DNA of 64,000 bases from Rhodothermus bifroesti (GTDB taxonomy: Bacteria; Bacteroidota; Rhodothermia; Rhodothermales; Rhodothermaceae), in assembly GCF_017908595.1 (NCBI RefSeq), contig NZ_JAGKTL010000005.1:124001-188000 (forward strand). The letters are read 5' to 3'. A model generated the notes under the pieces. The model was not told the DNA's origin and made no database searches. It saw only the letters and a list, made by a program, of their open reading frames with translations. The translations under genes and the position numbers were made by a program. Positions 41,205 through 56,166 of this stretch are shown here, in pieces (within the stretch, counting starts at the first letter, position 1; every line of letters begins with the position of its first letter).

Positions 41205-43799
41205 ATGCAACGCAAAAGCTATAGGTTAGGGCTCTGGAGCCTAATGCTACCGCTTATGGCTATGGCCCAGACAACGGCAGAGTTAGTACCCCGTTTTGAG
41301 CCTCCGGCAAGTCGGCTGCTCCTGGAGCGGCCTACCCAATTTGGCGCGTTTGTGGATGTGGTCGGACGGCGTGCAGCATTGCTGGGCTATGAGCACCGAT
41401 CCTTTGAAGCGTGGGTCTATCCGCTCAAAATCCTTCGGGATTTACGCCTAGACTTTGCCATCGCCGACTACCCTATACCCCTAAGTGGCGAGGAAACGCT
41501 CTCCTATATTGAGGTGCGGCCTGAGGCAACTGTGCTCACCTATAGCCACGCTGCCTTTACCGTGCGGCAGCTGCTCTACGCACCGCTCAATGAGCCCGGC
41601 CTCATCATGCTGTTTGATGTGCAGACAGTGCGGCCGCTGACCATCGAGGTATCGTTTCGACCAGATTTGCGGCTGATGTGGCCTGCCGGACTGATGACCG
41701 GTTATCTGGGATGGAACGAAACAGGTCGCTACTACACGATCACCGAAGAAACCCACCGCTTTGCAGGGGTGATCGGCTCCCCGCTAGCACAGGACGTTTC
41801 TGTACAACCCTATCAAGAAGAGCCTAAGGACCTCCCGAACCGCTTTCGCCTAGAGGTGACACCGGACTTAGCACGCAAGTATTACGTTCCCGTTGTGGTT
41901 ACGGGTAGCATAGAAGGCGTAGAGGATGCCCTGGCCGTCTACCGGCGATTGCTAACGCAGGCCGAAAGCTATTACCGCCAAAACGTGGCCCACTACGAAC
42001 GCTTACTGGAACAAGCGCTGCAGCTGGAAACGCCGGACCCTAAGCTCAATGTTGCCTACCAGTGGGCGCTCATTGGCATTGACAAAGGACTGGCAACCAA
42101 TCCGCAGCTGGGCACGGGGTTGATTGCAGGCTTTCGCACTGCAGGCAACAGCGAACGACCAGGTTTTGCGTGGTTTTTTGGCCGTGATGCGCTTTGGACA
42201 GTGCTAGCGACAACTGCTGTTGGCAATTATGAGACTACGCGCACTGCGTTGGACTTTCTGCGCCGCTTTCAGCGTGAAGACGGCAAAATCCCCCATGAAA
42301 TTGCGCAAAGCGCAGCGCTGCTCGACTGGTTTGAAGCTTATCCGTACCCTTGGGCCTCGGCCGATGCCACGCCGCTGTTTATTGTAGCCCATGCGGATTA
42401 CTGGCAGGCGAGTGGAGACCTGGAATATATCCGTCAACACTGGGAAGCGCTGCTCAAGGCTTATCGCTTTACAGCAGCGACCGACACCGACGGCAACGAC
42501 TTGGTGGAAAACACCCAGGTGGGTCACGGATGGGTAGAAGGCGGCCTGCTCTATCCACCGCATGAAGAGCTCTATCAACAGGGCGTTTGGTTGGCCGCAC
42601 TCGAGGGGATGGAAGCCATGGCAATAGCCTTGGGTGAAACAGAACTTGCGGCAGAAGTCCGCCAGCGGGCACAGGCTCTACGTGCAGCTATTGAGCGTAC
42701 GTATTGGCTAGAAGATGCAGGTTTTTATGCCTTTGCTACCTGGAAGCCTCAAGCTGACGCAGCCCCCGAGCTGCTTCGGGAAAACACCGTGCTGCAGGCT
42801 GTACCGCTTTGGTGGCGGCTGCTTCGTCCGGAACGGGCCCGACGGGCCCTGGAGCACCTGGGCAGTGCGGCACTAGCAACCGACTGGGGAACCCGCATCC
42901 TCTCCAATGCCAGCCCACGCTACGATCCGCTTTCTTACCACCATGGATCGGTATGGCCTTTGTTTACAGGCTGGGCAGCTCTGGCAGCCTACCGCTACGA
43001 GAAACCACATATCGGCTACCAGGCCCTTATGGCCAACGCCCTCCTGACGTTTCAAGGAGCCTTAGGCTACATAACCGAATTGCTCTCGGGCGATTTTAAC
43101 CGTGACTTTGGGCGCTCTTCGCATCACCAGATCTGGTCCGAGGCCATGGTCATTACCCCCCTGGTACGTGGACTGCTGGGACTGGAGGTGCGCGAAGGGG
43201 GGCACCTATTGCACTTTGCCCCCCAACTCCCGGCAGTGTGGGACACCGTTACGCTGCGGCATGTGCCGGTAGGCCGAGATCGGTATGCGATAACCCTCTG
43301 GCGTCAGGAAGAGCGCTTTCACGTTCGCGTTCTTCCCGAAGGGGAAGCCGCACCAATTGCACTTGAGCTAGCTCCAGCTTTTCCGCTAGATGCACGCGTG
43401 CAGGCAGTGACGGTCAACGGCCAGCCTGCTGCGTTTGCCGTACGTCAGGAAGGGGACGTGTTGCGTGTGGCTATCCGCACCGTGGTTGGCGGTCCGGTAG
43501 AAGTTACCTATACCCTAACACCCGGCACCGACGTCTATGTAGCCCCTACCCCATTGGTACCGGGTATGGAAAACAAGGGTTTACGCGTACTTCGGGTGCG
43601 GGCGGCTGCAGAGACCCTGGAGCTCGTCGTCGAAGGCCGCGCTGGGCGTACCTACACGGTCCAGGTACGCACACCGCGGCGACTCCAAGCAGTGGAAGGG
43701 GTGAAGCTTGAGAAAACCGCCGATGGCTATCTCCTCCAGGTGGCGTTTCCGAACGGCGACGGCTATCAGCGCCGCGTGCTGCACCTGCCGCTCAATTGA
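41205..43799 (+). CDS. Secreted six-hairpin glycosidase, amylo-alpha-1,6-glucosidase-like
   Basis: An 864-residue secreted enzyme. ATG 41205 begins a signal peptide ending in MAMAQT; the frame is open 204 bp further, across the terminator. Residues 25-270 form a beta-sandwich (super-sandwich) domain. Residues 280-700 are an (alpha/alpha)6 barrel with WFFGRDALWTVLATTAVGNYETTRTALDFLRRFQREDGKIPHE, LVENTQVGHGWVEGG and DPLSYHHGSVWPLFTGWAALAAYRY, the pattern of GDE_C/amylo-alpha-1,6-glucosidase and GH15-like enzymes. The acidic residues in GRDALW and in SHHQIWSEAM near the end are candidate catalytic ones. A C-terminal beta domain completes it. It probably releases sugar from alpha-glucan outside the inner membrane, upstream of SusCD; linkage specificity is inference. 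Confidence 0.8.
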   Translation: MQRKSYRLGLWSLMLPLMAMAQTTAELVPRFEPPASRLLLERPTQFGAFVDVVGRRAALLGYEHRSFEAWVYPLKILRDLRLDFAIADYPIPLSGEETLSYIEVRPEATVLTYSHAAFTVRQLLYAPLNEPGLIMLFDVQTVRPLTIEVSFRPDLRLMWPAGLMTGYLGWNETGRYYTITEETHRFAGVIGSPLAQDVSVQPYQEEPKDLPNRFRLEVTPDLARKYYVPVVVTGSIEGVEDALAVYRRLLTQAESYYRQNVAHYERLLEQALQLETPDPKLNVAYQWALIGIDKGLATNPQLGTGLIAGFRTAGNSERPGFAWFFGRDALWTVLATTAVGNYETTRTALDFLRRFQREDGKIPHEIAQSAALLDWFEAYPYPWASADATPLFIVAHADYWQASGDLEYIRQHWEALLKAYRFTAATDTDGNDLVENTQVGHGWVEGGLLYPPHEELYQQGVWLAALEGMEAMAIALGETELAAEVRQRAQALRAAIERTYWLEDAGFYAFATWKPQADAAPELLRENTVLQAVPLWWRLLRPERARRALEHLGSAALATDWGTRILSNASPRYDPLSYHHGSVWPLFTGWAALAAYRYEKPHIGYQALMANALLTFQGALGYITELLSGDFNRDFGRSSHHQIWSEAMVITPLVRGLLGLEVREGGHLLHFAPQLPAVWDTVTLRHVPVGRDRYAITLWRQEERFHVRVLPEGEAAPIALELAPAFPLDARVQAVTVNGQPAAFAVRQEGDVLRVAIRTVVGGPVEVTYTLTPGTDVYVAPTPLVPGMENKGLRVLRVRAAAETLELVVEGRAGRTYTVQVRTPRRLQAVEGVKLEKTADGYLLQVAFPNGDGYQRRVLHLPLN

Positions 43800-43816
43800 G
43801 CGATGACGCAGGGGCG

Positions 43817-43824
43817 AAACGTTT
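43817..43824. promoter_or_regulatory. Weak LacI-like core upstream of the plug lipoprotein gene
   Basis: An AAACGTTT palindrome within GCGAAACGTTTTTA, 53 bp before the plug gene. It shares the LacI-family core but misses three of the nine fixed positions of the longer pattern, so it may be chance. Confidence 0.2.
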
Positions 43825-43876
43825 TTATTTTTCAAAGGTATCGCCCTTAGGACCATATCGCAGCCTGTATAGAGCC

Positions 43877-44383
43877 ATGAAACACCCATATCTCACCGGG
43901 TGGCTGGCACTGCTTGTTGGAGGCGGACTGCTTATGGGTTGTGCAAGCAGCCGGTCAACAGCGGACACCAGCGCTACTGCGCAAGAAGATCGCGTTGAGG
44001 TAGGCTACGGCACGGTACCGCGCGACCAGCTTACAAGCTCGGTCAGCGAGCTCGATCCCGACAAAATCACCGAGCGGCCCATAGCCCGTGTGGAAGAACT
44101 TCTGCGGGGACGTGTAGCGGGCGTGTATGTGACCGAAGCTTCAGGAGGCGAGCTATCGATTCGCATTCGCGGCCAAAACACGTTGCTGGGGAATGCCGAG
44201 CCGCTATTTGTGGTCGATGGCGTGCCCATTACTCCTATGCCGGGCGGGACCATCTCGTTTTTGAATCCGTACGACATCGAGTCGATCACCGTGCTGAAAG
44301 ACGCGGCTGCAACAGCCATTTACGGCTCGCGTGGCGCCAATGGTGTCATCGTGATCACCACCAAGCGCCCCCGGCAGCGCTGA
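43877..44383 (+). CDS. Stand-alone TonB-receptor plug-domain lipoprotein
   Basis: A 168-residue lipoprotein; ATG 43877 gives a lipobox (LLMGC, Cys22). After a Ser/Thr/Ala linker, residues 44-165 are a complete SusC-type plug domain: VGYGTVPRDQLTSSVSEL, LLRGRVAGVYVTEASGGELSIRIRGQNTLLG, PLFVVDGVPITP, then DIESITVLKDAAATAIYGSRGANG. The protein stops at VIVITTKRPRQR, exactly where a receptor would enter its barrel. There is no barrel, and the frame downstream is not a broken continuation. The final half is nearly identical to the plug of the SusC encoded 295 bp downstream. It may be a plug-only periplasmic or outer-membrane lipoprotein that acts on SusC, TonB or the substrate; its role is unknown. 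Confidence 0.85.
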   Translation: MKHPYLTGWLALLVGGGLLMGCASSRSTADTSATAQEDRVEVGYGTVPRDQLTSSVSELDPDKITERPIARVEELLRGRVAGVYVTEASGGELSIRIRGQNTLLGNAEPLFVVDGVPITPMPGGTISFLNPYDIESITVLKDAAATAIYGSRGANGVIVITTKRPRQR

Positions 44384-44677: not shown

Positions 44678-47600
44678 ATGAACCGCATGATCCACTGGAA
44701 AAAGTGGCTGCTGGGTGTAGGAGCTTGGTTGTGTAGTGTAAGCGTTGTCATGGCCCAGCCCCGCATGGTTACTGGAACTGTTTCGGACGCTTCTACAGGA
44801 GATCCGCTTCCTGGGGTTAATATTGTAGTGCTGGGGACCACCACCGGCACAACGACCGACGTGGGTGGTCGCTACCAGATTGAGGTCCCTGGGCCAGAAG
44901 CGATTTTGGTTTTCTCGTTTGTGGGCTATGAGCAAGTGCAGGAGGTGGTGGGCACACGCTCGGTCATCAACGTACGCCTGCAGCCTACGGTAGAGGTGTT
45001 AGGGGAGATTGTGGTGGTAGGTTATGGCGTGCAGCGGCGCGAGGACGTGACGGGCTCGGTGGCTTCGATTAGTGTGGATGAAATCAATCAAGGCCGCTAT
45101 ACCTCTCCAGACCAGCTCCTGCAAGGTCGGGTGGCCGGTCTTACGATTGTGGCCAACAACGGTGAGCCTGGAGCAAACCTAAATATTCGGCTGCGTGGGG
45201 GCACGTCGATCAGCGCCAGTAACCAGCCGCTTATTGTGATCGATGGCGTGCCGATCGATAACGTGCCGCTAACACCAGGAGGTGCTGGTGTAAACGGGGC
45301 ACCGCCGCCACCGCGTAACCCGCTCAGCCTGATTAACCCCAACGACATTGAGTCTATTACCGTTTTGAAGGATGCAGCTGCGACAGCCATTTACGGTTCC
45401 CGTGGTGCTAATGGCGTCATCCTGATTGAGACCAAGAAAGGGCGGCAAGGGCAGCTCCAGGTGGATTATGATGGCTATGTGACGGCCTCAACGCCTTATC
45501 GAAAGATGGACGTGCTCAATGGCGAGGAGTATCGCCGTTTTGTAGAGCAGCAAATTCAGGCGGGCAACCTCCCTGCTTCGGCCCGCAACGTCCTAGGCAA
45601 TGCCAATACCGATTGGGAGGAGGCGGTTATGCGTACAGCCCTCACCCAGTCGCATAACCTGGCCTTCTCGGGAGGCACTAGCCAGACGCGCTATCGCGCT
45701 TCGGTTAACTACCTGAACGAAGAAGGGCTGGTAATTAACTCGGGCCTAGAGCGCTTAACGGGGCGCTTGAACGCGGATCATCAAGCACTGGATGGACGGC
45801 TGCGGCTGCAGCTGAATTTGACCTCTTCGTTTACGCACGACAACCTGCTCCCCTATAACCAAACTGCAGGTTTCGAGGGAGGGGTGCTCTCGAACGTCTT
45901 TCAGATGAACCCGACCTATCCCATCCATGCCCAAACTAACCTGGACGGGACGCCGGCACGCGATGGCTACTTTGAGATCGCGGATGGTCGCACCTCGGTG
46001 CGCAACCCCGTGGCCATGGCTGAACAGGTGCAGGATTTTGCTAAAACGACGCGCAGCCTAGGTAACCTTGCTGCGGAACTGGACCTGCTAGCTGGCCTAA
46101 CGGCTCGGGTGAACTTTGGGGCCGACCGCGCCCAAGCCAGTCGCCGGCAGTACTTCCCTCAGGAAAGCCCTGTAGGGAATGAGTTTGGCGGCCGTGCCTT
46201 GCTGCGCAATCGGGAACACTCCTCTATGACGTTCCAGAGCTACCTGACCTATCGGGGAACGTTTGCGCGGCAACATAACGTGGAGTTGCTGGGAGGCTAC
46301 GAGTTCAACGAGTACATGACCGAGGAATTCGGGGTCGAAGGACGGGACTTTGTGACCGACCTCACGGGCTACAACGCTGTACAGGCTGGTGCCCTTTTGG
46401 TCAAAGAAGGAACGTTCTCCTACAAAGACAAAAGCCGACTGGTCTCGTTCTTTACGCGCCTTAACTATAACTTTGCCAGTAAATACTACCTCACAGGGGT
46501 GCTGCGCTACGATGGGTCTTCGCGGTTCGGCGAAGGCAATAAGTGGGCCCTCTTTCCAGCTGTATCCGGTGCTTGGCGCTTAAGCGCAGAACCCTTCCTG
46601 CGAGGTGTCGACTGGATCAGCGACTTGCGACTGAAGGTAGGTTACGGAATCACCGGTAGCCAGGAAATCGGCAACTACCTGTCGCTGGCACAGTTGGGCG
46701 CCCGCCAGGACCTGCAGGCCGTCTTCAACCAGGAAGCCTTTACGGGCTTTGCTCCGATCAACTACGCCAATCCCAACCTCCAGTGGGAAGAAACCGCCTC
46801 CTTTAACGTAGGCCTAGACTATAACTTCTGGAACGGCAAGCTGTCGGGTACCCTGGAGTACTACGTTAAAGAGACCGATAAACTGTTGCTGGAAATCCCA
46901 GTGCCCCAGCCAGCGCCGGTGCCAACGCGCATTGAAAACATTGGCAAGACGCGTAACCGGGGCTTTGAGCTCTCGATGGACGCGCTGGCCATCGATCGGC
47001 CTAACTTCAACGTGCTTTTGGGACTGGTCTTTAGCGCTAACCGTAACGAGGTGGTCAGCCTTGGCCCTCACGAGTTTATCGTGACTGGCGTGGTTAGCGG
47101 TCGCGGCCAGTCGGGGAACTTCGCCCAACGCCTGATTCCGGGAGAGCCGGTAGGCACATTCTACGGCTGGATCTTTGAAGGCGTAGAAAATGGCCGTCAG
47201 AAGTTCCGCGATCTCAACGGAGACGGCCGCATCGACGATGCCGACCGCACCATCATTGGAAAAGCGCAGCCCGACTTTACCTACGGATTCCGGACAAACA
47301 TCTACTGGGGCAACCTGGACTTTAGCCTCTTCATCCGCGGTGAGCAAGGCCGCGACGTGTTCAACAACACAGCCTTGGTCTACCAAACCAAGAGCGCTGT
47401 ATTGCAAAACCAAAACTTCCTGAAGGCTGCTCTGGATGACCCCGACGCGCTGGATGAACCGGCCATCTTTTCTTCGCGCTGGATTGAGGACGGCTCGTTC
47501 TTGCGCGTAGACAATGTGACCATTGGTTACACGTTCAGGAATCTAGGAGGGGTGCTCGGGCAGCATGTGCGCCGCGCCCGCGTCTACGTCACGGGCCAGA

Positions 47601-47737
47601 ATCTGCTGCTCCTTACGCCATACTCAGGCTATGACCCCGAGGTAAACATCAGCGCTGGCCTTGCTGCGCTGGGCATTGACTATGCCCAGTATCCACGGCC
47701 CCGGAGCTTTACGCTAGGGGTAAGCTTGGGATTCTAA
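44678..47737 (+). CDS. susC: SusC/RagA-type TonB-dependent outer-membrane transporter
   Basis: A 1019-residue receptor. A signal peptide (to SVVMAQP) is followed by a carboxypeptidase-regulatory-like domain (residues 28-110: VTGTVSDASTGDPLPGVNIVV ... TTDVGGRYQIEVPG). The plug runs over residues 112-255, with VVVGYGVQRREDVTGSVASI, GRVAGLTIVANNGEPGANLNIRLRGG and DIESITVLKDAAATAIYGSRGANGV. The rest is a 22-strand barrel ending with SFTLGVSLGF, whose last Phe is the BAM signal. It imports oligosaccharide under the SusD lid using TonB energy. It is first in the susCD operon behind two LacI-type operators. Confidence 0.96.
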   Translation: MNRMIHWKKWLLGVGAWLCSVSVVMAQPRMVTGTVSDASTGDPLPGVNIVVLGTTTGTTTDVGGRYQIEVPGPEAILVFSFVGYEQVQEVVGTRSVINVRLQPTVEVLGEIVVVGYGVQRREDVTGSVASISVDEINQGRYTSPDQLLQGRVAGLTIVANNGEPGANLNIRLRGGTSISASNQPLIVIDGVPIDNVPLTPGGAGVNGAPPPPRNPLSLINPNDIESITVLKDAAATAIYGSRGANGVILIETKKGRQGQLQVDYDGYVTASTPYRKMDVLNGEEYRRFVEQQIQAGNLPASARNVLGNANTDWEEAVMRTALTQSHNLAFSGGTSQTRYRASVNYLNEEGLVINSGLERLTGRLNADHQALDGRLRLQLNLTSSFTHDNLLPYNQTAGFEGGVLSNVFQMNPTYPIHAQTNLDGTPARDGYFEIADGRTSVRNPVAMAEQVQDFAKTTRSLGNLAAELDLLAGLTARVNFGADRAQASRRQYFPQESPVGNEFGGRALLRNREHSSMTFQSYLTYRGTFARQHNVELLGGYEFNEYMTEEFGVEGRDFVTDLTGYNAVQAGALLVKEGTFSYKDKSRLVSFFTRLNYNFASKYYLTGVLRYDGSSRFGEGNKWALFPAVSGAWRLSAEPFLRGVDWISDLRLKVGYGITGSQEIGNYLSLAQLGARQDLQAVFNQEAFTGFAPINYANPNLQWEETASFNVGLDYNFWNGKLSGTLEYYVKETDKLLLEIPVPQPAPVPTRIENIGKTRNRGFELSMDALAIDRPNFNVLLGLVFSANRNEVVSLGPHEFIVTGVVSGRGQSGNFAQRLIPGEPVGTFYGWIFEGVENGRQKFRDLNGDGRIDDADRTIIGKAQPDFTYGFRTNIYWGNLDFSLFIRGEQGRDVFNNTALVYQTKSAVLQNQNFLKAALDDPDALDEPAIFSSRWIEDGSFLRVDNVTIGYTFRNLGGVLGQHVRRARVYVTGQNLLLLTPYSGYDPEVNISAGLAALGIDYAQYPRPRSFTLGVSLGF

Positions 47738-47784
47738 AACCTTGTGGCATAACCATGATGCAGACCAAACAGCATAGATCGACT

Positions 47785-49383
47785 ATGAACCGCTGTTGCA
47801 CCTACCGAGCGCTTCTCCGGGGATGGCCTTTCCTTGCTTTGGCTATCTTGCTGGGAAGCTGTACTAACCTCGAGGAGGAGACCTTCTCGGTCGTAACGCC
47901 CGATAAGTTTTATCGAACCGACCGGGAAATCACAGCCGCCTTGGCACCTATCTACGCGCAACTCCGCGCGCTAGAATGGAGCTACTGGACCATGAGCCAG
48001 GTAACGACGGACGAGACCGTTGTGCCTACGCGCGGCTCGGACTGGTACGACGACCGCCGCTGGCTCAACCTCCACGAGCATAACTTCTTGCCCTCACAGG
48101 TAGACTTTAACGGTGCCTGGGTAGATCTCTACACCGGCATTGCCCGCGCGAATGGCTTGCTCCAAACCCTGGCTGAAATTGATGTGGCCAATAAGGAGCA
48201 AATCGAGGCCGAAGTGCGGCTGTTGCGGGCATTCTACTACTATTGCCTGTTGGACCTGTTTGGCAACGTTCCCATTGTAGGAGACGATGAGTTTGTGGTG
48301 GATCCTGAAAATCCACCACCCACCGAACCCCGCAGCAAAGTTTATGACTTTGTCAAAAGCGAGCTGCTGGCGGCACGGGAAAATCTGCCCGAAACGCCAC
48401 CGCTGCCAGGTCGCGTGACAAAATGGGTAGCGGATGCCCTTTTGGCAAGCCTCTACTTGAACGCAGGGGTGTTCACGAAAAACAGTACCCAAATCAATCC
48501 CAACGGCTACAACTCCTGCATGGACGTCCCCAATGCTTGCCAAGAGGCAGTGCGGCATGCTGACAACGTGATCAACTCGGGCTACTTCCAACTCGCTGCT
48601 AACTGGTTCCAAAACTTTCTACCGGACAACCACAACTCGCCCGAAATCATTTTTGCTACCCAGCATCTGCCAGAACCCGGCCTGGGCATGAACTTCGTCA
48701 TGCGCACGCTGCACTACCACCAGCTGACGCCCTCGCCGTGGAACGGGCATTCCATCTTAGCAGAGACCTATAACCTGTTCGACGATGACGACCTGCGCAA
48801 GACGATCTTCTTGGTAGGTCAACAGTATGCTGAGCCACGCGGCAACTGCATTGGCCGGCAATGCTACTCGCAAGGGGCACCCTTGCAAGACCGAGCAGGC
48901 AATCCCTTGGCCTATACGCCCGAGATCAATAACGTATTTGCCGCTACCGAGTACGAAGGCGTGCGCGTGCTCAAGTATGGCCCAGACCCTGCGCACGTTG
49001 GCGGGGACCATGGAAACGACTATGCTTGGTTCCGGCTGGCTGAAATGTATCTGATTAAGGCCGAGGCGCTCAATGAAATCAACGGCCCGAATGCCGAGTC
49101 GATCAACCTGATCAACCAGGTGCGGGCGCGCGTATTCGATCCACCTAAACCCTTGAATTTGGCCGACTATCCCTCCAAAGAGGCCCTACGAGAGGCCATC
49201 CTAAAAGAACGGCTCTTTGAGTTCACTTGGGAGGCTAAGCGGCGGCAAGACCTCATTCGGCACGGAAAATATACGCGGGCTTACCAGTTTAAGCCGCAAA
49301 GCCCGCAGCGCGTCCTACTCCTACCGATTCCACAAGCGCAGCTCGACGCTAACCCGAATCTCCAGCAGAACCCGGGCTACTGA
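47785..49383 (+). CDS. susD: SusD/RagB-type surface glycan-binding lipoprotein
   Basis: A 532-residue lipoprotein. ATG 47785 puts the lipobox (LLGSC, Cys24) after a normal signal peptide; an in-frame ATG at 47755 would add ten residues. TNLEEETFSVVTPDKFYRTDREI is the usual SusD N terminus, with the TPR-like helices following (QIEAEVRLLRAFYYYCLLDLFGNVPIV). The C-terminal part has EMYLIKAEALNEINGPN, INQVRARVF and ERLFEFTWEAKRRQDLIRHGKY, all standard for the family. It closes over SusC and captures substrate. It starts 47 bp after susC. A terminator follows. Confidence 0.95.
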   Translation: MNRCCTYRALLRGWPFLALAILLGSCTNLEEETFSVVTPDKFYRTDREITAALAPIYAQLRALEWSYWTMSQVTTDETVVPTRGSDWYDDRRWLNLHEHNFLPSQVDFNGAWVDLYTGIARANGLLQTLAEIDVANKEQIEAEVRLLRAFYYYCLLDLFGNVPIVGDDEFVVDPENPPPTEPRSKVYDFVKSELLAARENLPETPPLPGRVTKWVADALLASLYLNAGVFTKNSTQINPNGYNSCMDVPNACQEAVRHADNVINSGYFQLAANWFQNFLPDNHNSPEIIFATQHLPEPGLGMNFVMRTLHYHQLTPSPWNGHSILAETYNLFDDDDLRKTIFLVGQQYAEPRGNCIGRQCYSQGAPLQDRAGNPLAYTPEINNVFAATEYEGVRVLKYGPDPAHVGGDHGNDYAWFRLAEMYLIKAEALNEINGPNAESINLINQVRARVFDPPKPLNLADYPSKEALREAILKERLFEFTWEAKRRQDLIRHGKYTRAYQFKPQSPQRVLLLPIPQAQLDANPNLQQNPGY

Positions 49384-49477: not shown

Positions 49478-52400
49478 ATGTACGGTATGACTCGGAAGGG
49501 ATGGTGGATAGGACTAGTGCTTATCGGACTAGGGTGCCGATCGACGCCGCCTAGCAGCACGCTTTTTGAGGCGCTTTCAGGACGCCAAACCGGCGTGCGC
49601 TTCGAAAATCGCCTGCGTGAAACGCAACAGTTCAACGTGTTTATCTATCGCAACTTTTACAACGGCGGTGGCGTGGGGCTAGCCGACTTTAACGGCGATG
49701 GCTTACTGGACATTTATCTCACTGCCAACCAAGGCCCTAACCGTCTTTATCTGAACCGCGGCAATTGGCGCTTTGAGGACGTTACCGAACAGGCCGGCGT
49801 GGCTGGCAGCAAACCCTGGAGCACGGGTGTAGCTATTGCTGACGTCGACGGCAACGGCTGGCCGGATATCTACGTGTGCAACAGCGGTCCTTTTGCCGAT
49901 AGCCTGCGGGCCAATGAGCTTTTTTTAAACTTGGGTCCCGGCGAAAACGGCATTCCCCGTTTTCGAGAAGCTGCCGCTGAACTGGGCCTGGCCGACACCG
50001 GCTTTTCGATCCATGCCGCATTTTTTGACTACGACCGCGACGGCGACCTGGACGTCTACGTCCTCAACAACTCCATGCGCCCCATTATCAGTTTGGATTT
50101 ACGCAACACGCGCCATGAGCGCAGCTGGGAAGGGGGTGACCGGCTTTACCGCAACGACGGAGGACGGTTTGTAGACGTCAGCGCCGAAGCAGGCATCTAC
50201 GGCCCAGAAATTGCCTTTGGGTTGGGGGTGACCGTAGCTGACCTCAACCGAGATGGCTGGCCTGATCTATACATCTCGAACGACTTCTTTGAACGCGACT
50301 ACTTGTATCTCAACCAAGGGGATGGGACGTTTCGTGAAGTGCTGGAAGAGGCCATGGCCTCTATTAGCCTTTCCTCGATGGGGGCCGATGCAGCTGATCT
50401 CAACAACGATGGCTTCCCAGAAGTGTTTGTCACCGATATGCTCCCCGAAGCGGACGCACGCCTGAAAACCACCACAACCTATGAAGGCTGGCAGCTCTAC
50501 CAGACGAAACTCCGACAAGGGTTCTACCACCAGTTTACACGCAACACGCTGCAGTATAACCATGGCGATGGCACCTTCAGCGAAATCGGCATGATTGCCG
50601 GTGTAGCCGCTACCGACTGGAGCTGGGCTGCACTCATTTTTGATGCCGACTTAGATGGCTATAAAGACATTTTCGTGGCCAACGGCATCTACTGGGACGT
50701 GATCGATCAGGATTACTTGGACTATCTGGCCAGCGAAGAAACCATGCAGGCCATGCTCCAGCGTGAACGCGTCGATTACCTGGAGCTTATCCGTCGCATG
50801 CCTTCGCATCCGCTCCCCAACTACCTGTTTCATAACCAGGGCAACCTGACCTTTAGCAACCGTGCGCAAGCATGGGGTTTGGGTCGCCCGGGCTTCTCGA
50901 GCGGTGCTGCCTATGGCGACTTAGATGGCGATGGAGATCTGGATCTGGTGGTCAACGATGTCAACGGTCCCGTACGCCTCTACCGAAATCGGGCCCAAGA
51001 GCTAACCCATCATCGTTTTCTTCAGATCCACCTCGAAGGTGAAGCGCCGAATACCCAAGGTGTAGGGGCTCAAGTAACGATTGTCGCTGGGGATCAGCGT
51101 TTTTACCAGGAGCAGATGCCCAACCGCGGCTTTCAGTCGTCGGTCGATCCCGTACTGACCTTTGGGCTGGGTAAGTTGGATACCGTGGAGGCCGTGGTGG
51201 TGGTCTGGCCCGACGGCCGGTATGAGGTGCGTCGTCAGGTAGCCACAAACCAGCGACTGCGTTTTCGCCAATCTGAAGCGCAACCTGGAACGCCTGAAGT
51301 GCCGCTGTTGCCTGCACGGCAGATCCCGCACTTGGTGGACGTCACCGCACGCATAGGGCTTACCCATCGGCATCAGGAAGATGCATTTGTGGACTTCCAG
51401 CGAGAAGGCCTGCTTCCCTGGATGCGTTCGCGCGAAGGTCCCCGGGTGGCTGTGGGCGATGTCAACGGGGATGGGCGCGAAGACTTCTATCTTGGTGGGG
51501 CTAAAGGTTTTCCAGGCGTGCTCTTTATCGCACAACCCGACGGGCGCTTTGCGCCAACCCACGAGGCCCTCTTTGCGGTCGATGCCCTGTCGGAGGATGT
51601 AGGCGCTGTGTTTTTTGATGCCGATGGCGACGGCAACCTCGACCTTTACGTCGCCAGCGGGGGTACAGCCTATGCCCCGCAAGCCTCAGCCTTGCAGGAT
51701 CGCCTGTACCTCAATGATGGCCGCGGACGATTTGTCAAGGCACCTGATCGCTTGCCAGAATACCGCATCAGCACCCAGGCCGTTGCCGCAGCCGACTACG
51801 ACGGCGATGGGGATCTGGATCTGTTCGTGGGCGGCCGTCTGGTCCCCTGGCGCTATGGCGAAACGCCCCCGAGTGTGCTGCTGGTGAATAACGGCAAGGG
51901 ATACTTTACCGACCAAACCGATCTGCGCGCCCCCGGCTTACGCCAAGTAGGCATGGTCACCGATGCCGCTTGGGCTGATCTCGATGGTGACGGCCGGCTT
52001 GACTTGGTCGTGGTTGGTGAATGGATGCCAATCACCTTCTTGCGCAACGCGGGCCAGGGACGGCTCGAACGCCAAGCTGTGCCTGCACTGGATAGCCTAA
52101 AAGGTCTGTGGCACCGACTGGCCATAGCCGACTTTGATGGCGACGGCGACCTCGACTTTGTGGTGACCAACTTGGGACTGAACACCCCGCTCCAGGCCTC
52201 ACCCGAGGCTCCCTTAGTGCTCTGGGCAAAAGATTTTGACCAAAACGGCTTTTTCGACCACATCCTCACCCGCCGTGAAGGTGCCCGCCATCGACCACTT
52301 ACGTTGCTTGCCGAGCTGCGCAGCCAGCTTCCCTACGTTGCGCTGCGGATCCCTTCTCATGCCGCCTATGCCCAGATGATGCTTGAAGATATCTTCCGCC

Positions 52401-52813
52401 CCGAAGAGCTCGAAGGCGCCTTGGCGCTTGAAGTGACCGAACTGCGGAGTCTGTACATCGAAAACTTGGGGAATTGGCAGTTTCAAGTGCACCCGCTACC
52501 CTTTGAAGCGCAATGGGCGCCGCTCTACGGACTGCTGCCAATCGATGTGGATGGGGATGGCCACCTGGATCTGCTGGCTGGCGGCAACTTTCGCTGGGCA
52601 CAAACCGGGATTGGGCTGATGGAAGCTACCTATGGGCTTTGGCTCAAGGGAGATGGCCGGGGCCATTTTACAGCCATTTTGCCGCGCGATAGCGGCTTTT
52701 TTGTGCGTGGTGAAGTGCGCGACGTGCGTCTGCTGCGACGGGCTGGCCTGTCTCCCCTGGTGCTTGTTGCCCTAAATGACGATGCTCCACGCTTTTTCCA
52801 GTTACGTCGATGA
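49478..52813 (+). CDS. FG-GAP/VCBS-repeat and ASPIC-domain lipoprotein, copy 1
   Basis: An 1111-residue surface lipoprotein. ATG 49478 gives a short signal and lipobox (LIGLGC); the frame extends 261 bp upstream through susD and the terminator without similarity. Two seven-bladed FG-GAP/VCBS propellers are indicated by about a dozen calcium-binding loops of the type DxDxDG or DxNxDG (for example ADFNGDGLLDIY, ADVDGNGWPDIY, DYDRDGDLDVY). Between them an ASPIC/UnbV domain (about residues 505-600) contains QMPNRGFQSSVDPVLTFGLG and VVVVWPDGRYEVRRQ. Such integrin-alpha-like proteins follow susCD in many Bacteroidota and are thought to bind glycan or proteins at the cell surface. The actual ligand is unknown. 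Confidence 0.9.
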   Translation: MYGMTRKGWWIGLVLIGLGCRSTPPSSTLFEALSGRQTGVRFENRLRETQQFNVFIYRNFYNGGGVGLADFNGDGLLDIYLTANQGPNRLYLNRGNWRFEDVTEQAGVAGSKPWSTGVAIADVDGNGWPDIYVCNSGPFADSLRANELFLNLGPGENGIPRFREAAAELGLADTGFSIHAAFFDYDRDGDLDVYVLNNSMRPIISLDLRNTRHERSWEGGDRLYRNDGGRFVDVSAEAGIYGPEIAFGLGVTVADLNRDGWPDLYISNDFFERDYLYLNQGDGTFREVLEEAMASISLSSMGADAADLNNDGFPEVFVTDMLPEADARLKTTTTYEGWQLYQTKLRQGFYHQFTRNTLQYNHGDGTFSEIGMIAGVAATDWSWAALIFDADLDGYKDIFVANGIYWDVIDQDYLDYLASEETMQAMLQRERVDYLELIRRMPSHPLPNYLFHNQGNLTFSNRAQAWGLGRPGFSSGAAYGDLDGDGDLDLVVNDVNGPVRLYRNRAQELTHHRFLQIHLEGEAPNTQGVGAQVTIVAGDQRFYQEQMPNRGFQSSVDPVLTFGLGKLDTVEAVVVVWPDGRYEVRRQVATNQRLRFRQSEAQPGTPEVPLLPARQIPHLVDVTARIGLTHRHQEDAFVDFQREGLLPWMRSREGPRVAVGDVNGDGREDFYLGGAKGFPGVLFIAQPDGRFAPTHEALFAVDALSEDVGAVFFDADGDGNLDLYVASGGTAYAPQASALQDRLYLNDGRGRFVKAPDRLPEYRISTQAVAAADYDGDGDLDLFVGGRLVPWRYGETPPSVLLVNNGKGYFTDQTDLRAPGLRQVGMVTDAAWADLDGDGRLDLVVVGEWMPITFLRNAGQGRLERQAVPALDSLKGLWHRLAIADFDGDGDLDFVVTNLGLNTPLQASPEAPLVLWAKDFDQNGFFDHILTRREGARHRPLTLLAELRSQLPYVALRIPSHAAYAQMMLEDIFRPEELEGALALEVTELRSLYIENLGNWQFQVHPLPFEAQWAPLYGLLPIDVDGDGHLDLLAGGNFRWAQTGIGLMEATYGLWLKGDGRGHFTAILPRDSGFFVRGEVRDVRLLRRAGLSPLVLVALNDDAPRFFQLRR

Positions 52814-55800
52814 CACAGATACGCCATTTTCTTGGGATCGTTGTGTTGCTTGCCTTGTCGGCCTGCTCCAAGCCAAGCGCGCCTACCTTGTTTGAACCAC
52901 TCTCTGCCGAGCGCACTGGAATCACGTTTGTTAATGCAGTGCCACCCGATGACCCCGCTTTTAACATCATCGAATACATGTATTATTACGATGGGGCTGG
53001 GGTAGCTGCAGCAGACTTTAACGGCGACAGGCTGCCCGATTTGTACTTCGTCGCTAACCTGGGCCCAAACCGGCTGTACCTAAACCGGGGAGATTTTCGC
53101 TTTGAGGACGTCACAGAGCAAGCTGGCGTGGCCGGCACAGGCAACTGGAATACGGCCGCGGCTGTAGTAGACCTCGACGGCAACGGCTGGCCGGATATCT
53201 ACCTCGTGACGTTTAGCAATTACTTAGACCGAACCGGACGCAACCAGCTTTTCTTGAACCTGGGCCCTGACGAAAACGGCATCCCGCGCTTTCGCGAGGC
53301 AGCTGCTGAATTTGGCCTCGACATCGCAGCTTATGGCACGCAGGCTGTGTTTTTGGACTATGACCGTGATGGCGATCTCGACGTCTACTTGCTGCACCGG
53401 GCACTGCACACCCCCGAAAGTTATGGCCCTGCGCAAACGCTGCGAGCCCGCTTTGATCCGAATGCCAGCGATCGGCTACTGCGCAATGATAACGGCCGTT
53501 TTGTGGACGTTACGGCTGAGGCCGGCATCGAAGACGGCCTGATTGGCTACGGCCTGGGTGTGGTCGTGAGCGATCTGGACCAGGACGGCTGGCCCGATTT
53601 GTATGTGGCTAACGACTTTCACGAAGACGATCGCCTGTATCGCAACAACGGAGACGGTACGTTCACCAACGTGTTGCCAACAGCCACCTACTACACCTCG
53701 CGCGCCTCTATGGGCGTTGATGCCGGCGATGTGAACGGCGATGGGCTCCCAGACATTGTCGTGCTCGACATGATGCCTTTTGATGTAGCCATCTACCAGG
53801 CTTCTGGGGGACCTGAAAGCTTCGAACTCTATCAACTGCAGCGGCGATTGGGCTATCATCCCCAATTTCCACACAACGTGCTCTTGCTCAATCAGGGCCA
53901 AATGCGCTTCATCGATGTAGCTTTTCTGGCTGGAATTGCCGCTACAGATTGGAGCTGGGCCCCTTTGCTGGCCGATTTGGACAACGATGGGCATGTGGAC
54001 CTGTTTGTGACCAACGGGATCTATCACCGACCCAACGACCTCGATTATATCCGTTACATTGAGCAGCCTGAAGTCCAAGAAGCCCTAACCCATGGCCTAA
54101 CGCCCAAGTTGATGGCCGAGGTGCTGCGCCACATGCCCCACGTGCCGCAGCCAAACTTTGCCTTTCGCAACAACGGCGACGGGACGTTTACCAATCAGGC
54201 CGCCAGCTGGGGTCTGGCAGAACCAGGATTTTCTACCGGTGCCGTGTACGTCGATCTCGACGGCGACGGCGCGTTGGATTTGGTCGTCAATAACCTCAAC
54301 GCGCCAGCAGCCGTGTACCGCAATCGGGTGCGCGAGCTGCAACCTGAGCATGCAAACTTTTTGCGCGTTGCCCTGGAAGGCGAAGGGATGAACCGCATGG
54401 GGATTGGGGCGCGCGTGACCGTACACTATGCCGGTAGGATGCTGCTTCGAGAACAACAGCCTGTGCGGGGTTGGCTGTCGTCCGTTGAGCCCGTAGTGCA
54501 CTTTGGGCTAGGCGCTTACGCCCAGGTTGATTCGGTGGTGGTCGTCTGGCCCGACGGGCGCTATGAAGTGCGCCGCCAGCTCGCTGCCAACCAAACGCTG
54601 ACGTTTCGCCAAAGCGAAGCCAGTGGAAGCGATCGCTACCAGCATGCTTTGCCACAAGCGCTGTTCTTTACCGACGTAACGCAGACCTTAGCGTTGCCCT
54701 ACCGGCACGAAGAAAATGCTTTTGTGGATTTCACCCGGGAGCCGTTGCAACCGCACCGTCTTTCCCGAGAAGGCCCGGCGCTAGCAGTAGGCGATGTCAA
54801 CGGAGATGGTTTGGAAGATGTGTTCCTAGGCGGAGCCAAGTGGCAAGCAGCCCAGCTGCTTTTGCAACGAGCCGATGGCACGTTCGCACCCTCTAACGAA
54901 GCCTTGTGGCAAGCCGAAAGCCCCTACGAAGATGTCGACGCCGCACTTTTTGATGCCGATGGCGACGGCCACTTGGATCTCCTGGTCGTCAGTGGAGGCA
55001 ACGAATGGTGGGGACGTGCCGAAGCCCTGCGCGGTCGGCTGTACCGGAATGACGGCCAGGGAAATTTTAGGCGAGATGAAACAGCCCTCCCTGATGTATT
55101 TGTCAATGGCGCTTGCGTGCGCCCAGCCGATTTCAACGGTAATGGCTATGCGGACTTGTTCATCGGCGGTCGGGTTGAAACCGGCCGCTATGGACAATCT
55201 CCGCGTAGCTACCTGCTGGAAAATCAGGGCGATGGAACATTTATAGACGTCACAGAAGCCCGTGCGCCTGCCCTGGCCCGGCTAGGGATGGTCACCGATG
55301 CCGCCTGGGCCGATCTCGATGGCGACGGCCGGCTTGATTTGGTCGTTGTTGGCGAATGGATGCCGATCACCCTTTTTTTCCAGCAGCCTGACGGCACGTT
55401 TACCCCCACTGCTTTAGCAGACACCGAAGGCTGGTGGTTTACCGTGCAGGTGGTAGATCTCGACAGCGACGGAGACCTAGACCTTGTGGCAGGCAACTTA
55501 GGACGCAATGCGCTGTTGCAGGCTTCGCCTGAGCGGCCGGCTCGACTCTACCTGCAAGACCTGGACGAAGACGGGCAGCCAGATCCAGTGATTACGGCCT
55601 ACTGGGGAAACCAAGCCTATCCCATAGCGCTGACAGATCAGCTACTGCAACGTTTCCCTAAGCTTCGATCGCGTTTTAAGGGGTACCACAACTGGGGGGT
55701 GCCCAGGCTGGAAGACCTCTTCGGATCCCAGGTGGTACAGCAGGCTGAAGTGCGCCAGGCCAAAACGTTCGCTTCCGTCTGGGCAGAAAACGATGGTAAG

Positions 55801-56166
55801 GGCCACTTCACCGTACACGCGCTACCAGCTGCAGCACAGCATTTTCCAATCCGGGCCATGGCCCAGGCCGATCTCAACGGCGACGGCCACTTGGACCTAA
55901 TCCTGGCAGGGAATTTTTTTGAAGCACAGCCGCACCTGGGATCCTACGGTGCCGGCTATGGATTGGTACTGCTGGGACCGCCCGATGCCTGGCGTCCGCT
56001 CTTGCCGTCGCAAAGCGGCCTGTGGCTAGAGGGGCAGGTGCGGCGCTTGCAGTGGCTGCTGCATCGCGCTTCGGGCCGAAAGCTGCTGCTAGCTGCGCGC
56101 AATGACGCACCGGTGCAGGTGCTGGCAGGGCAACCGGCTTCGGCCGCCACAGCGCTTCGTCCATAA
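52810..56166 (+). CDS. FG-GAP/VCBS-repeat and ASPIC-domain lipoprotein, copy 2
   Basis: An 1118-residue paralogue of the preceding protein, whose stop it overlaps by four bases (ATGA), so translation is coupled. Lipobox LSAC (Cys19) follows a short signal. The same order recurs: propeller with ADFNGDRLPDLY, VDLDGNGWPDIY and DYDRDGDLDVY; ASPIC domain (about residues 500-600: QPVRGWLSSVEPVVHFGLG, VVVVWPDGRYEVRRQ); second propeller. A 29-residue stretch is identical to copy 1 (see findings). Copy 2 differs in its C-terminal part (KGYHNWGVPRLEDLFGSQ). The two proteins are probably made in equal amount and may form a complex. Confidence 0.9.
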   Translation: MTQIRHFLGIVVLLALSACSKPSAPTLFEPLSAERTGITFVNAVPPDDPAFNIIEYMYYYDGAGVAAADFNGDRLPDLYFVANLGPNRLYLNRGDFRFEDVTEQAGVAGTGNWNTAAAVVDLDGNGWPDIYLVTFSNYLDRTGRNQLFLNLGPDENGIPRFREAAAEFGLDIAAYGTQAVFLDYDRDGDLDVYLLHRALHTPESYGPAQTLRARFDPNASDRLLRNDNGRFVDVTAEAGIEDGLIGYGLGVVVSDLDQDGWPDLYVANDFHEDDRLYRNNGDGTFTNVLPTATYYTSRASMGVDAGDVNGDGLPDIVVLDMMPFDVAIYQASGGPESFELYQLQRRLGYHPQFPHNVLLLNQGQMRFIDVAFLAGIAATDWSWAPLLADLDNDGHVDLFVTNGIYHRPNDLDYIRYIEQPEVQEALTHGLTPKLMAEVLRHMPHVPQPNFAFRNNGDGTFTNQAASWGLAEPGFSTGAVYVDLDGDGALDLVVNNLNAPAAVYRNRVRELQPEHANFLRVALEGEGMNRMGIGARVTVHYAGRMLLREQQPVRGWLSSVEPVVHFGLGAYAQVDSVVVVWPDGRYEVRRQLAANQTLTFRQSEASGSDRYQHALPQALFFTDVTQTLALPYRHEENAFVDFTREPLQPHRLSREGPALAVGDVNGDGLEDVFLGGAKWQAAQLLLQRADGTFAPSNEALWQAESPYEDVDAALFDADGDGHLDLLVVSGGNEWWGRAEALRGRLYRNDGQGNFRRDETALPDVFVNGACVRPADFNGNGYADLFIGGRVETGRYGQSPRSYLLENQGDGTFIDVTEARAPALARLGMVTDAAWADLDGDGRLDLVVVGEWMPITLFFQQPDGTFTPTALADTEGWWFTVQVVDLDSDGDLDLVAGNLGRNALLQASPERPARLYLQDLDEDGQPDPVITAYWGNQAYPIALTDQLLQRFPKLRSRFKGYHNWGVPRLEDLFGSQVVQQAEVRQAKTFASVWAENDGKGHFTVHALPAAAQHFPIRAMAQADLNGDGHLDLILAGNFFEAQPHLGSYGAGYGLVLLGPPDAWRPLLPSQSGLWLEGQVRRLQWLLHRASGRKLLLAARNDAPVQVLAGQPASAATALRP

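Follow-up and report, generated by a model that had tools for sequence, protein, structure and literature searches.

A short block shared by two old tandem ASPIC/UnbV and FG-GAP paralogues of Rhodothermus bifroesti, probably the trace of a past gene conversion

The window analysed here is a stretch of 64,000 nt from Rhodothermus bifroesti (contig NZ_JAGKTL010000005.1, positions 124,001 to 188,000; all coordinates below are counted from its first letter), and it contains a run of plus-strand genes in which a SusC gene and a SusD gene are followed by two giant paralogues. The SusC/RagA-family TonB-linked outer-membrane protein (44678..47737, + strand; NCBIfam TIGR04056, 846.6 bits against a cut-off of 368.25) is adjacent to a SusD/RagB-family protein, the usual partner of SusC (47755..49383, + strand; Pfam SusD_RagB, 112.9 bits against a cut-off of 23.1), and this adjacency of the two families marks a SusCD uptake locus. 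Behind them lie ORF A (49478..52813, + strand, 1111 aa) and its paralogue ORF B (52810..56166, + strand, 1118 aa), which overlap by the 4 nt ATGA, the start of B lying within the stop of A. Upstream of the SusC gene is a solo TonB plug-domain protein of 195 aa (43796..44383, + strand; Pfam Plug, E 1.2e-20), with a lipobox read by eye. Elsewhere in the same genome there are seven further matches to ASPIC/UnbV (contigs C1, C2 and C5), in open frames of roughly 580 to 1200 codons.

The two giant proteins are members of the ASPIC/UnbV plus FG-GAP (CRTAC1-like) proteins, both by domain content and by fold. Pfam matches exceed the cut-offs in A (FG-GAP_3, 284.7 bits; UnbV_ASPIC, 77.6 bits) and in B (292.6 and 82.7 bits), and the lipoboxes LIGLGC of A and LSAC of B can be read by eye. 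AlphaFold2 single-chain models (pLDDT 91.2 and pTM 0.91 for A; 89.8 and 0.91 for B) reveal a CRTAC1-like propeller with an ASPIC/UnbV domain followed by a second, separate propeller, and this layout is shared by A and B. CRTAC1 is a secreted animal protein, and mouse CRTAC1 (9etn) superimposes on residues 25-617 of the A model (Z 37.3, 476 aligned, rmsd 3.1) and on the first half of the B model (Z 36.4, 457 aligned, rmsd 2.5); it was also the sole match at E 0.001 when the PDB was searched with the sequence of A. The structure matches ranked below CRTAC1 are mostly propellers of other families, together with other unrelated proteins. For the second halves the best structural matches are to LGI1, with Z about 31 (31.6 for residues 615-1110 of A).

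Within the second propeller, A and B share a block of 29 consecutive identical residues (residues 825-853 of A, encoded at 51950..52036, and 826-854 of B, encoded at 55285..55371, both + strand). This block is a family motif, moderately conserved, of one propeller blade; in the A model it forms two strands (826-833 and 842-851) joined by a DLDGDGRLD loop, which we take to be a calcium-type motif. The first-pass annotation of this DNA had reported the identity of the block with only silent changes, and that observation holds: all 29 residues agree, and the two DNA sequences have 8 mismatches in 87 nt, every one silent and at a third codon position. The same annotation described the remainder of the proteins as widely diverged, which is correct in part and overstated, since 544 of 1102 aligned residues are identical in a global alignment (49%); the DNA outside the block is about 54% identical. 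The next longest identical runs measure 15, 13, 13 and 11 residues, and no run exceeded 21 when the match positions were shuffled 20,000 times, although this randomization takes no account of how conserved motifs cluster and is therefore too generous. The codons of the block are also shared more often than expected. More specifically, 17 of its 25 degenerate codons are the same in both genes. Their codon usage predicts 9.2 (P 0.0012), and at identical residues outside the block 214 of 503 are shared (binomial P 0.009, Fisher P 0.014).

The duplication that gave rise to A and B is old, as had been proposed from the sequence alone. In a FastTree phylogeny of 86 proteins (the R. bifroesti pair, 37 hand-chosen pairs, 2 third copies and 8 upstream copies), a single branch, at a local support of 100, parts the 38 As from the 38 Bs; with a midpoint root the Bs fall into two groups and are thus not necessarily a clade. 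Each set includes the order of R. bifroesti, Gemmatimonadota, Fidelibacterota, Bacteroidota and one Zixibacteria record. The last of these sits among the Gemmatimonadota. Such a spread fits an old duplication, though transfer of the whole pair between phyla may also have occurred. The tandem arrangement of A and B is present in all six congeners compared. SusC and SusD are encoded upstream of A at 32 of the 37 testable loci among 79 named ones, and at 18 of the 23 testable among 27 relative loci. Downstream of A, a B-type gene is present in 32 of 43 testable named loci and in 25 of 26 testable relative loci, the latter having mostly been selected for presence of the pair. As a rule, the pair follows SusC and SusD in the same orientation.

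Several further arrangements were seen around the pair. In Bacteroidota loci such as L054, L064, L071 and L107 a third giant copy stands upstream of A, giving the order SusC, SusD, third copy, A, B, and the tree places this copy on the side of the As. Short plug-like ORFs occur near A and B in 7 of 18 testable named loci and 14 of 22 testable relative loci (21 of 40 together), a count that may include broken SusC genes. Solo TonB plug-like ORFs near the pair were seen, for instance, at L045, L050, L055, L057, L128 and L132, and in some Gemmatimonadota such an ORF separates A from B and is read from the opposite strand. The stretches examined from the congeners G003 and G006 showed none.

Against this background of old divergence, orthology is locally broken at the block. 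Outside it, A is 76-78% identical to the As of the six congeners and 47% identical to its own B. Within it, A differs from its own B by 8 of 87 nt and from the six congener As by 19-21 nt; B likewise differs from the six congener Bs by 19-21 nt, its own A being nearer at 8. When 1064 windows of 29 ungapped codons were scanned in each of seven genomes, the own pair was nearer than all orthologues at two places only, namely the R. bifroesti block (13 overlapping windows) and a tract in the congener G002 (13 windows). When own-pair identity is set against the expectation from the congeners, the block has the largest residual of the 1064 windows (29 residues against a mean of 24.8, z 2.7). It is also the top window in a separate scan for own-pair excess (permutation p 0.017).

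Phylogenetic trees place the break at the same position. In 258 of 267 windows scanned with FastTree the As form one side of a branch. The R. bifroesti pair are sisters in 6 windows, which overlap one another and all cover the block (support 0.55-0.97), and in none of the 267 windows is the A/B pair of any other genome sister; in 3 windows the A clade is broken with no own pair as sisters, which indicates that small tree errors occur. IQ-TREE analysis of the 87-nt block with 14 rows pairs the R. bifroesti A and B (92/87) and joins G003_A to them (85/88), and a single A clade is rejected by the AU test (p 0.0155), while in a control stretch the As stay together. When the alignment is widened to 42 rows from 21 genomes, the two genes stay paired (94/92; AU p 0.00186) in a block tree that is otherwise poor and contains other incongruences as well. 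Branch supports in the IQ-TREE trees are below 95, and the tests for conversion all rest on the same 87 nt, so that they are weak and not independent. The block nevertheless presents both a bounded tract in which the paralogue is nearer than the orthologues and an incongruent tree, the marks by which interlocus gene conversion is recognized.

A past gene conversion, which the first-pass annotation had offered as one of two causes, is therefore favored by the distances, the tree incongruence and the codon sharing, with statistics of moderate strength, and is not favored by the scan for exact shared runs. In a GENECONV-type scan of the R. bifroesti A and B the top fragment was not the block but 29 identical nt at VDGNGWPDIY (49845-49873 in A, 53174-53202 in B; p 0.015). 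Because the block carries eight silent changes, an exact-run test has little power there. A mismatch-tolerant mode of the same kind was uninformative, as it returned fragments of several hundred codons and did so in cross-genome controls too.

The second place found by the distance scan, in G002 (L119, 8005-14756), belongs to another blade. There A and B are identical over exactly 69 bp around NRLYLNRGNWRFEDVTEKAGVAG, with abrupt ends, and the tract is significant in the exact-run scan (p 0.0025). It is likely a recent conversion. The AU test on this tract does not reject a single A clade (p 0.244), the G002 A and B are unpaired in the 267 FastTree windows, and the top window of the own-pair excess scan in G002 lies away from the 69-bp tract. 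Long exact matches in two other genomes, G012 (1072) and G008 (50), were rejected as conversions since they derive from mutually overlapping ORFs.

Taken as a whole, the identity of the block is probably the result of an old, short gene conversion between A and B, with A as the probable donor and B as the probable recipient, after the split of R. bifroesti from the six congeners. A tract of roughly 90 bp would have been copied between the two genes in the R. bifroesti lineage, and the eight silent differences would have built up afterwards. Short matching FG-GAP stretches may supply the local identity needed for conversion. The direction from A to B is weakly suggested, since the pair is placed close to the As of congeners and B carries A-like residues. 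In the 14-row block tree the A/B split is supported at only 52/79, with G002_A on the side of the Bs, and in the 42-row tree the R. bifroesti pair lies loosely among congener As with G003_A not adjacent. Some of the residues shared by the two blocks may have been retained from the ancestor, as the V of DLV and the I of PIT are also found in outgroup As or Bs.

Both the event and its age are what we infer from these patterns, the age from codon sharing. Silent sites are near saturation between R. bifroesti and its congeners, which use the same codons at 39-48% of positions (44-48% for As and 39-45% for Bs). The A and B blocks share 68% of their codons; among A orthologues of 93-94% identity the figure is 69-74%, and 72% for the matching Bs (G003-G006 and G001-G005). 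The sharing of 68% places the conversion after the congener split, near the age of the splits between G003 and G006 and between G001 and G005.

The other cause put forward in the first-pass annotation was a special constraint on one blade, that is, purifying selection in which important residues were kept in both genes without any exchange while silent sites drifted. Such a history accords with the silence of every A/B difference in the block and with the recognizable form GMVTDAxWxDxDGDGxxDLxVVGEWMPxT across the aligned As and Bs, a form that was judged without counting and from which some rows depart widely. Conservation of the block is nonetheless middling. Among the hand-picked proteins, its mean pairwise identity is 0.62 in 38 As (rank 262 of 1083 windows, 76th percentile) and 0.58 in 37 Bs (rank 235 of 1090 windows, 79th percentile), and windows that are better conserved are less alike between the R. 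bifroesti A and B. In all six congeners the two blocks differ, agreeing at 22-26 of 29 residues (3-7 differences) with 14-22 of 87 nt different. Constraint on the blade is thus unsupported as the cause, and the excess sharing of silent sites and the incongruence of the block trees with A/B orthology likewise argue against purifying selection alone, which appears unlikely.

Less likely again is convergence or co-adaptation, in which the same core-packing changes would have been selected in both proteins because the two blades share a job or touch. Three positions lend themselves to this reading: the R. bifroesti A and B carry L, V and I where all six congener Bs and five of the six congener As carry F, L and L, the remaining one, G003_A, having L, L and I. 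Yet the R. bifroesti A and B share four block residues that depart from the congener majority, and three of these have identical codons as well; the sharing of silent sites, moreover, runs across the block. Chance, by which the block would be merely the longest of many conserved runs in repeat proteins of 49% identity, chosen for its length, is very improbable, for while the clustering of conserved motifs makes the simple shuffle too generous and the exact-run scan misses the block, codon sharing is in excess there though it was no criterion in choosing the block, which is also the sole place in the R. bifroesti pair where both genes leave their orthologues.

The identity of the block by itself requires no functional reading. 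The ATGA overlap had been read as tying the synthesis of A and B one to one, and a putative heterodimer had been proposed from it. A genome at greater distance (G043) has the overlap too, but because a gap of 5 nt separates the two genes in the six congeners, it is no firm sign of a fixed stoichiometry, and the claim of one-to-one synthesis is weak. The co-occurrence of A and B suggests a joint function. Their co-occurrence with SusC and SusD, the lipoprotein-like N-termini and the large propellers suggest that they are surface lipoproteins of an uptake complex. They probably work on the SusC/SusD outer-membrane transporter, where they perhaps capture cargo or cap the transporter. A broader proposal, that SusC, SusD, A and B constitute one multi-phylum outer-membrane uptake machine in which the two giant lipoproteins act as a pair, their blades being kept matched within each species by micro-conversions of less than 100 bp at about 54% identity, is speculative and doubtful.

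The gene order SusC, SusD, A, B is widespread, and roughly half of the testable loci also have a solo plug-like gene close by. No description of the A/B pair or of this gene order was found in the open-licence literature, as judged by titles and the starts of abstracts. As the block suggests, tandem paralogues may remain open to gene conversion even when only about half identical and separated by a split common to several phyla, which would bear on the dating and the alignment of such pairs.

Three known systems offer comparisons. The first halves of A and B resemble CRTAC1 (9etn) by model fold; its chain of 551 residues covers only these halves, at 23-27% identity. The ASPIC/UnbV domain appears by name in tables of PMC3174227. 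A and B also recall SusC/SusD uptake pairs through their usual place after SusC and SusD in the same orientation, and they differ in being two extra giant proteins outside the defining pair. Finally, the block has the patch pattern of interlocus gene conversion and concerted evolution of duplicated genes (PMC3924818, a review; PMC2720389), in which paralogues of one genome are nearer to each other than to their orthologues within a patch and divergent outside it. Gene conversion is said in PMC3924818 to occur mainly above 80% identity, whereas the tract here, about 90 bp long, lies in paralogues whose DNA identity of only about 54% falls short of that level. Conversion is an ordinary process, here met in unusually diverged gene partners.
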